Source: a virus
Direction: 5' to 3' (one strand)
IMG/VR virus record: IMGVR_UViG_3300025168_014097
Span: 17,686-81,685 of that record
DNA length: 64,000 nucleotides
A program made the position numbers and the translations under genes. Below are positions 54,137 to 55,238 of the stretch, in pieces. The notes beneath the pieces were generated by a model. The model searched no databases, was not told where the DNA came from, and saw only the letters and a list, made by a program, of their open reading frames with translations. Numbering within the stretch: position 1 is the first letter of the stretch; each line of letters opens with the position of its first letter.

Positions 54137-54493
54137 TTACCTTCTGGTTACCTTAGGATTAATCGTTATATTTTTTGATGGTTTAATATCCGGTCGTTGA
54201 ATTGCGTTTGAAGTTTGTTGATTTTTTGCAAAGTTTTTATTTTCATTATTGAACTTTTCTTGATCATCATTCTGTCTATCAATCGCTTCATTTACTAATT
54301 GAATGTAGTTTCGTCGCATCCATATAGGCATATGATATACTTCATTATGAGTAAATCCTTTTCCATGATACGTTAAATCAAAAATTTGTTGAAATAAGTG
54401 TTTTCTGTAGCTAAGACTTAGGCCAAAAAAACCCGGCGGTGATCGGGAAATCCGACACCTCCTCATAATCACATTTATCACATTCAAAATCAA
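54137..54493 (-). CDS. gp51-like tail assembly chaperone segment, probably made by +1 frameshift from the gp26-like gene
   Basis: The meaningful part begins after the T7 run at 54431-54425 and reads FFGLSLSYRKHLFQQIFDLT, YHGKGFTHNEVYHMP and IWMRRNYIQLVNEAI, then a charged, disordered tail. The IWMRRNYIQ block is typical of small proteins after gp26 in T4-like phages. The frame upstream to a TTG at 54493 has no convincing start with its own ribosome site. Reading on from the gp26-like frame by one slip would give a fusion, as in gpG-gpT of other tails. Confidence 0.68.
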   Translation of the reverse strand: MILNVINVIMRRCRISRSPPGFFGLSLSYRKHLFQQIFDLTYHGKGFTHNEVYHMPIWMRRNYIQLVNEAIDRQNDDQEKFNNENKNFAKNQQTSNAIQRPDIKPSKNITINPKVTRR

Positions 54494-55238
54494 ACGTCAT
54501 ATCACTGTCCGGTGTAATCGATTTTATTTCTGTTCTGAAAGCTTGGGAATCTCTTGATAGAAATTCATTATCAACAAAATTTTCTATATATGATTGCTCA
54601 TCATTTCCATCAACCTGTGTGATGCAACATTTCATTCTAGTTGTCAACTCTGGATCTATCCCCGATCTTTTTGTTTTCTTTTTTGCCAATTTCAATAAGT
54701 CATCAACTTTACGTTCTAATCCATGCGTCATCAATTGGTATTGAATTGTTCGCTTAGATGCAGGTAATGTCATTTCGAATCGTTGAGTTCCTTTGGTATG
54801 TTTATCGAATGCTAATTCTTTATCTTCTACTTCTGATAAGTTTAGAACTTGATGTGATTTTGCACCACAACTTGGGCATGTAGTTTCAAACGGATAATCT
54901 GATCCATACGCTAGAATACGTCCAGCTATCATTAACGCGTTTTTATCACCTATCAGCAAATCATTATAATTGATTTTAGATACTATAATAGACTGCATAA
55001 ATTTATCTACTACAGTTCCTTGCTTAATGAGATTTTGCGATGTTAGTATATCCTCTTCTTTAGCAGTTGGATATTTTATTTCTAACATTCCCGATGATAA
55101 CGGTCCTTCTGGATCGTAAAAATACCCTTTACTTGGTAGTTCTATTGTTTCTGTTGGGAATTTGTAATCATCCGATTGGATTGATTCTGCTACGAGTTTT
55201 AATTTTAACTCATCATCTGATAGTTTGTTCTGTGCCAT
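54411..55238 (-). CDS. 26: gp26-like baseplate/tail assembly protein with zinc ribbon
   Basis: 275 residues. Matches the T4 gp26-type family: ETIELPSKGYFYDPEGPLSS, LEIKYPTAKEEDILTSQNLI, DLLIGDKNALMIAGRI. Two Cys pairs, FETTCPSCGAKSHQ and DFECDKCDYEE, form a likely zinc ribbon not found in T4 gp26. It ends GFFWPKS after a run of T residues shared with the next frame. In phage tails this gene precedes the tape measure, as here, and probably acts as assembly chaperone rather than final structure. Confidence 0.85.
   Translation of the reverse strand: MAQNKLSDDELKLKLVAESIQSDDYKFPTETIELPSKGYFYDPEGPLSSGMLEIKYPTAKEEDILTSQNLIKQGTVVDKFMQSIIVSKINYNDLLIGDKNALMIAGRILAYGSDYPFETTCPSCGAKSHQVLNLSEVEDKELAFDKHTKGTQRFEMTLPASKRTIQYQLMTHGLERKVDDLLKLAKKKTKRSGIDPELTTRMKCCITQVDGNDEQSYIENFVDNEFLSRDSQAFRTEIKSITPDSDMTFDFECDKCDYEEVSDFPITAGFFWPKS
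54425..54434 (-). other. Candidate +1 slippery site (GGG TTT TTT T)
   Basis: At the 3' end of the gp26-like frame, codons GGG TTT TTT TGG run into a seven-T tract. Slipping forward one base lets both TTT codons re-pair perfectly and continues into the gp51-like frame, eight bases before the zero-frame TAG region. A small GC stem (CCCG/CGGG) lies just upstream. A homopolymer sequencing error is the competing explanation. Confidence 0.6.

Follow-up and report, generated by a model that had tools for sequence, protein, structure and literature searches.

Here, we present an analysis of a tail gene locus in a 64,000-nucleotide stretch of viral DNA (hereafter, the window), which was taken from an 81,685-base virus contig. 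All genes described in the window are on the minus strand. A gene assigned to the sheath based on its position and size (58473-55870) is followed by a gene for a gp19-like tail tube protein (55827-55339), which matches phrog_4542 (5e-29) and, weakly, the Pfam gp19 family. The tube gene lies directly upstream of two open reading frames that together span 55238-54137, and our reading of the ORFs of the window confirmed these limits as originally given. The first is a gp26-like gene (55238-54411) encoding 275 aa; the second is a gp51-like region in the +1 frame, which from its GGC (54424-54137) would contribute 95 aa after a shift. At the junction is the block TTT TTT TGG CCT, which is in frame 0 (54431-54420). 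Directly downstream of the pair lies a gene for a 682-aa tape measure protein (54093-52045), identified by a BLASTP match to the annotated tape measure protein of Flavobacterium phage immuto (E 6e-20). The pair is thus located just before the tape measure gene, as predicted, and the order sheath, tail tube, gp26/gp51-like pair, and tape measure is the canonical one for a tail assembly chaperone (TAC).

The gp26-like ORF is preceded by a good Shine-Dalgarno sequence (ttaattaaGGAGaaaaagttATG) and ends, as the original prediction described, in GGG (54434) TTT (54431) TTT (54428) TGG (54425) CCT (54422) AAG TCT TAG (54411). Between stops at 54499 and 54137, the +1 frame stays open (from 54496) and runs across this TAG. 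Reading across the junction after a slip gives GFF-GLSLSYRKHLF...; the predicted fusion peptide spanning the junction is ITAGFFGLSLSYR, and the fused long form comprises 366 aa in all. The +1 frame contains TTG, GTG, and ATG codons at 54493-54464 (the ATG at 54466), all without a Shine-Dalgarno sequence, and the sole codon preceded by one is an ATT at 54451, behind GAGGAGG. The claim that the gp51-like frame has no good start is therefore correct, with the caveat that start codons without a Shine-Dalgarno sequence do exist. The junction in the window does not fit a classical −1 site (X_XXY_YYZ): it reads G_TTT_TTT_TGG, the domain is in +1, and reading in −1 would meet a stop within 11 codons.

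The gp26-like protein matches PF12322 (1.8e-11, 44.6 bits; cut-off 24.5) and phrog_150 (1.5e-12). T4 gp26 and residues 1-201 of T4 gp51 both match the PF12322 model over its length; T4 gp51 consists of a gp26-type domain in its first ~200 residues and an extra C-terminal extension of ~50 residues. The shifted peptide of the window matches PF20546 (about 3e-6 to 4.8e-6), and the shifted products of 5 of 49 relatives match phrog_634 ('baseplate hub assembly catalyst'). Based on hhalign, the +1 products align over their whole length with cyanophage products made in the −1 frame (95%, E 7e-9), and these in turn align with the C-terminus of T4 gp51 (94-96%, E about 1e-8). The direct comparison of the +1 products with T4 gp51 was not significant, and the link is made only via the cyanophage products. 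Accordingly, the name 'gp51-like' is apt for homology to the C-terminus of T4 gp51, by way of the cyanophages, but it covers only the ~50-residue extension and not the whole of gp51. Scans of GTDB contigs found no bacterial homologues, a PDB sequence search with a profile of the fused protein gave no match, and a viral scan with SP-15 gp26 returned SP-15 itself only. PF20546 is the Pfam family DUF6760, and it overlaps the C-terminal domain at 54137-54424; bacterial DUF6760 members may, we guess, be chaperone domains of contractile injection systems. We also note two CxxC pairs (CPSC and CDKC) in the gp26-like protein, which in an alignment are kept in many relatives and lost in Flavobacterium phage immuto.

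Because of position, two-form architecture, and family membership, the sequence evidence strongly supports that the pair represents the short and the long form of a TAC, as proposed in the original prediction, and not components of the baseplate hub. It could be argued that the frameshift is real while its products are structural proteins of the hub, and this would be in line with the database names (phrog_150, 'baseplate hub') and with older T4 genetics, which placed gp26 in the hub (PMC3004832). However, in the same T4 review both proteins appear among the hub assembly chaperones, with gp51 absent from the particle, and the location and short/long organization of the pair fit TACs, an assignment that has been published for T4-like phages. 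An AlphaFold2 model of the gp26-like protein (mean pLDDT 90.7; modelling and fold searches covered the short form only) matched predicted proteins of the gp26 family, and in a Foldseek search against the PDB the HK97 chaperone 2ob9_A ranked 2 of 350,542 chains, a non-significant match (E 2.1, prob 0.28, TMt 0.46) and no more than a hint. Altogether, we consider it unlikely that these are hub proteins.

Wide viral scans yielded 240 further loci, which together with the earlier ones were reduced to 198 distinct junctions. The frame break is at the same place in these related viral contigs and in several isolate genomes, among them Flavobacterium immuto and Microcystis Mel-JY01. All 198 junctions have the block (TTT/TTC/CTT)(TTT/CTT/CTA/TTC)(TGG/TAC/TTT/TTC)CCT, with TTT TTT TGG CCT in 144, TTT CTT TGG CCT in 35, and other forms being rare. 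In 196 of them, the domain is in the +1 frame and a re-pairable TTT.Y is present at the first or second codon; a slippery site is thus conserved in sister phages, and the pattern is kept among gp26-like proteins that are ~33-70% identical to that of the window. Codon choice in the block is also skewed compared with the background of the same genes: Phe in the first codon is TTT in 189/195 cases (background 0.75, p 9e-17) and Leu in the second is CTT in 36/40 (background 0.21, p 2e-20), p-values that are overstated because related sequences were treated as independent, while Pro is CCT in 198/198 (background 0.33). The codon-usage test and the conservation of the block rule out a chance T-run.

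The two remaining junctions (L231 and L266) both read AAT TTC TTC TGG CCT and, because TTC TTC replaces the TTT.Y site, are unable to shift +1 on TTT. Their domain lies in −1, and they have a heptamer of the classical −1 type, A_AAT_TTC. In a tree of gp26, the two group together (support 1.0) and are nested in the +1 clade, with a support of 0.74 for the node that joins them with their +1 neighbours.

Sequence conservation across the 196 junctions follows the change of frame. Upstream of the block, the third positions of frame 0 hold ~0.02-0.3 bits, mostly about 0.1, with the exception of the last codon ahead of the block; all 12 positions of the block hold 1.27-2.0 bits; and downstream of it, the degenerate position is the one expected of +1 codons. 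TGG CCT may be conserved because it codes in both frames (Trp-Pro in frame 0 and Gly-Leu in +1), and its conservation is by itself no proof of a stimulator; such dual coding, however, presupposes translation in both frames. In 23 junctions, a stop in the +1 frame lies three codons (nine bases) before the GGC of the block and, therefore, the shift is confined to the block.

Could the gp51-like stretch instead be a separate gene, translated from its own +1 start (ATG 54466 or ATT 54451) or by reinitiation after the gp26 stop? In the window, the ATG precedes the first +1 codon by 42 nt, the ATT follows a Shine-Dalgarno sequence, and some ATG, GTG, or TTG is found ahead of the conserved core in 138/198 relatives. 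However, the ATG of the window has no Shine-Dalgarno sequence and is replaced by ACG in the closest relative (L005); moreover, 60/198 junctions have no ATG, GTG, or TTG in the +1 frame between the last stop and the conserved domain, and 23 junctions have the late +1 stop nine bases before GGC. Nor would a separate gene account for the biased codons of the block, or for L231 and L266 having moved to the −1 frame, with a −1 heptamer, just where the +1 site is lost. A downstream gene that does begin on its own is known from one relative, the uncultured phage LR756511 (L017:4001-4950), in which there is no shift and the downstream domain starts at a TAATG overlap; this is a third solution, in which the second product is made separately. 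For the window, we regard a separate gene as very unlikely.

We give a similarly low probability to a ribosome slipping −2, or the polymerase slipping during transcription, on the T7 run. Phage Mu uses a −2 frameshift, and −2 and +1 slips reach the same frame; the T7 of the window is a homopolymer, and seven T's are short for transcriptional slippage. As a general mechanism, both are disfavoured by the relatives with TTT CTT (36) or TTT CTA (4) before TGG, TAC, or TTC, which keep the same frame relation without a run of more than three T's and without −2 re-pairing. Finally, although homopolymers are error-prone, a true run one T shorter, making a single long gene, is so improbable that it can be disregarded: a second IMG/VR contig is identical to the window over 1,400 bp of the locus, T7 included, the same break recurs in ~200 contigs from many samples and in isolates, and it is present in relatives without a homopolymer.

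Based on these sequence comparisons, a programmed +1 frameshift in the window is strongly supported, and we consider it highly probable that the two frames are one expression unit that would produce the short and the long form of a TAC. We suggest that the majority of ribosomes would reach the TAG of the gp26-like frame and synthesize the 275-aa short form (TAC-N), while peptidyl-tRNA-Phe (anticodon GAA) on TTT would most likely re-pair with the overlapping TTT or TTC in a minority, giving access to the C-terminal domain (TAC-C). By analogy to the gpG/gpGT of lambda, the short form may coat the tape measure protein in many copies, and the long form, in few copies, may recruit tail tube subunits via the extra domain. 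That ribosomes slip here, how often, and on which of the two codons is inferred, as is the role of the proteins as chaperones in this phage. TTT CTA TGG junctions need the first codon for the slip, whereas TTC TTT TGG and CTT TTT TGG junctions need the second; therefore, either codon can serve. The original proposal of forward slippage on T7 is supported in that the constant feature is a Phe codon able to pair again after moving one base 3'; the T7 itself, however, is not the conserved determinant because approximately one-fifth of the junctions read TTT CTT TGG or TTT CTA TGG.

We found no common Shine-Dalgarno-like element near the block; a 4-mer occurs in 70/196 junctions. The signal for downstream structure was weak on average in the junction set (z −0.89), and there was none in the window or the near-identical contig (z 0.42). 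UUU has a precedent for +1 shifting in the UCC_UUU_CGU of influenza PA-X (PMC3498833), and at the RF2 site it is one of the codons that come next in slipperiness (PMC10885494). In PA-X, as in bacterial prfB (CUU_UGA_C), the peptidyl-tRNA leaves UUU or CUU to pair one base further 3', and two relatives have comparable sequences (TTC TTT CGT in L015 and TCC TTT CTT in L009). PA-X is made in a eukaryotic host, unlike the proteins of the phage in the window, and prfB uses its shift for autoregulation at a stop codon with a Shine-Dalgarno stimulator, whereas the window has no A-site stop and no conserved Shine-Dalgarno sequence.

In the wider T4-like family, the same two domains are found with −1 sites. 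In 63 distinct junctions (loci L028-L114 and L027) from cyanophages (S-PM2 type), KVP40-like phages, pf16, ACP17, Menderavirus, and OLIVR6, gp26 ends with an in-frame T_TTT_TTC (T_TTT_TTT in pf16) and gp51 is in the −1 frame. The heptamer lies 9-12 nt before the gp26 stop, as in S-PM2 (L027:8472-9364), and in 14 of the 63 junctions gp51 has no start codon of its own. Sullivan et al. (2010, PMC3037559) noted that the ~200 N-terminal residues of T4 gp51 have no counterpart in cyanophage gp51, which a shifted C-terminal frame would explain. The jumbo phages RAS14, Ettore, SE_PL, and Atu_ph07 (L019-L022) have T_TTT_TTT or T_TTT_TTC and a −1 extension, which is unannotated or annotated only as a fragment, and no neighbouring gene is annotated as tape measure. 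The two Ackermannviridae sampled, VP-1 and Kevin (L112 and L115), lack the heptamer and have GTTTTT or GTTTTC instead, a pattern like the GTTTTT described in Vandenendeviridae (PMC12846349). SP-15 (TTT CAC) and Streptococcus phage GXN1 (TTT CGT) have a +1 extension; the junction of LIS04 reads TTT TTT AGT. T4 has two separate genes instead of overlapping frames; genes 26 and 51 are divergent, and their products are sisters in the tree, beside KVP40, which shifts, consistent with the pair having arisen by duplication in the T4 lineage. Taken together, we think it rather probable that a large aquatic T4-like clade, the Thornevirus/SP-15 group, and a Streptococcus phage use a +1 and not a −1 shift for their TAC, that TTT-YTT-TGG-CCT works without a stop codon, Shine-Dalgarno sequence, or downstream structure, that direction has flipped between +1 and −1 in this family with site and frame matched, and that T4 uses gene duplication instead.

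Frameshifting has reportedly been kept in several T4-like groups, with T4 itself using genes 26 and 51. Atkins et al. (2016) called T4 the exception to G-T frameshifting (PMC5009743). According to later papers (PMC10885494, PMC12846349), Vladimirov, Gautam and Davidson (2022, Virology 566:9-15) then identified which genes of T4-like phages encode TACs; that work is cited for −1 frameshifting on poly-T in these genes and for separate short and long TAC genes in some T4-like phages. It is thus already known that these proteins are chaperones and that T4-like phages use frameshifting, and the assertion that there was no report for the gp26-gp51 pair does not hold. The window shares with those genes PF12322, the C-terminal domain of gp51, short and long forms, and, in some groups, frameshifting; it differs in its predicted +1 shift at TTT-YTT-TGG-CCT in place of the −1 poly-T signals for which that paper is cited. 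In the literature searched, we found no report of the +1 class or of the direction switch within it, which is weak evidence of absence; the +1 class, its breadth over hundreds of aquatic phage contigs, and the direction switches appear to be new.

Among other systems, lambda gpG/gpGT (Xu et al. 2004; PMC5009743) is alike in its overlapping frames between the major tail protein and the tape measure and in a shift near the end of the first frame; however, it shifts −1 and is not recognizably homologous, whereas the predicted shift in the window is +1 and the first domain is PF12322. The TACs of Vandenendeviridae and Andersonviridae (PMC12846349) shift −1, at a site (GTTTTT) that is likewise T-rich and lies where TAC-N ends, ahead of the tape measure gene. 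The TAC of Halorubrum virus HSTV-2 likely shifts +1 and also belongs to a myovirus (PMC5009743); it is from an archaeal virus, unlike the phage of the window, and the comparison covers the direction of the shift.

The findings extend the gpG/gpGT rule, in the forward direction, to a large and abundant group of phages and account for gp51 being missed in annotation or entered as a tiny orphan; in isolate genomes, just a late fragment is called, as in Flavobacterium immuto (immuto35A_232, 36 aa) and SP-15 (SP15_046). The +1 site without an obvious stimulator makes this a clean system for asking why UUU slips forward in bacteria. Moreover, nested lineages that have swapped +1 for −1 represent a natural experiment: because both protein domains were kept through these swaps, it is the two-product output that is selected and not the direction of the shift.
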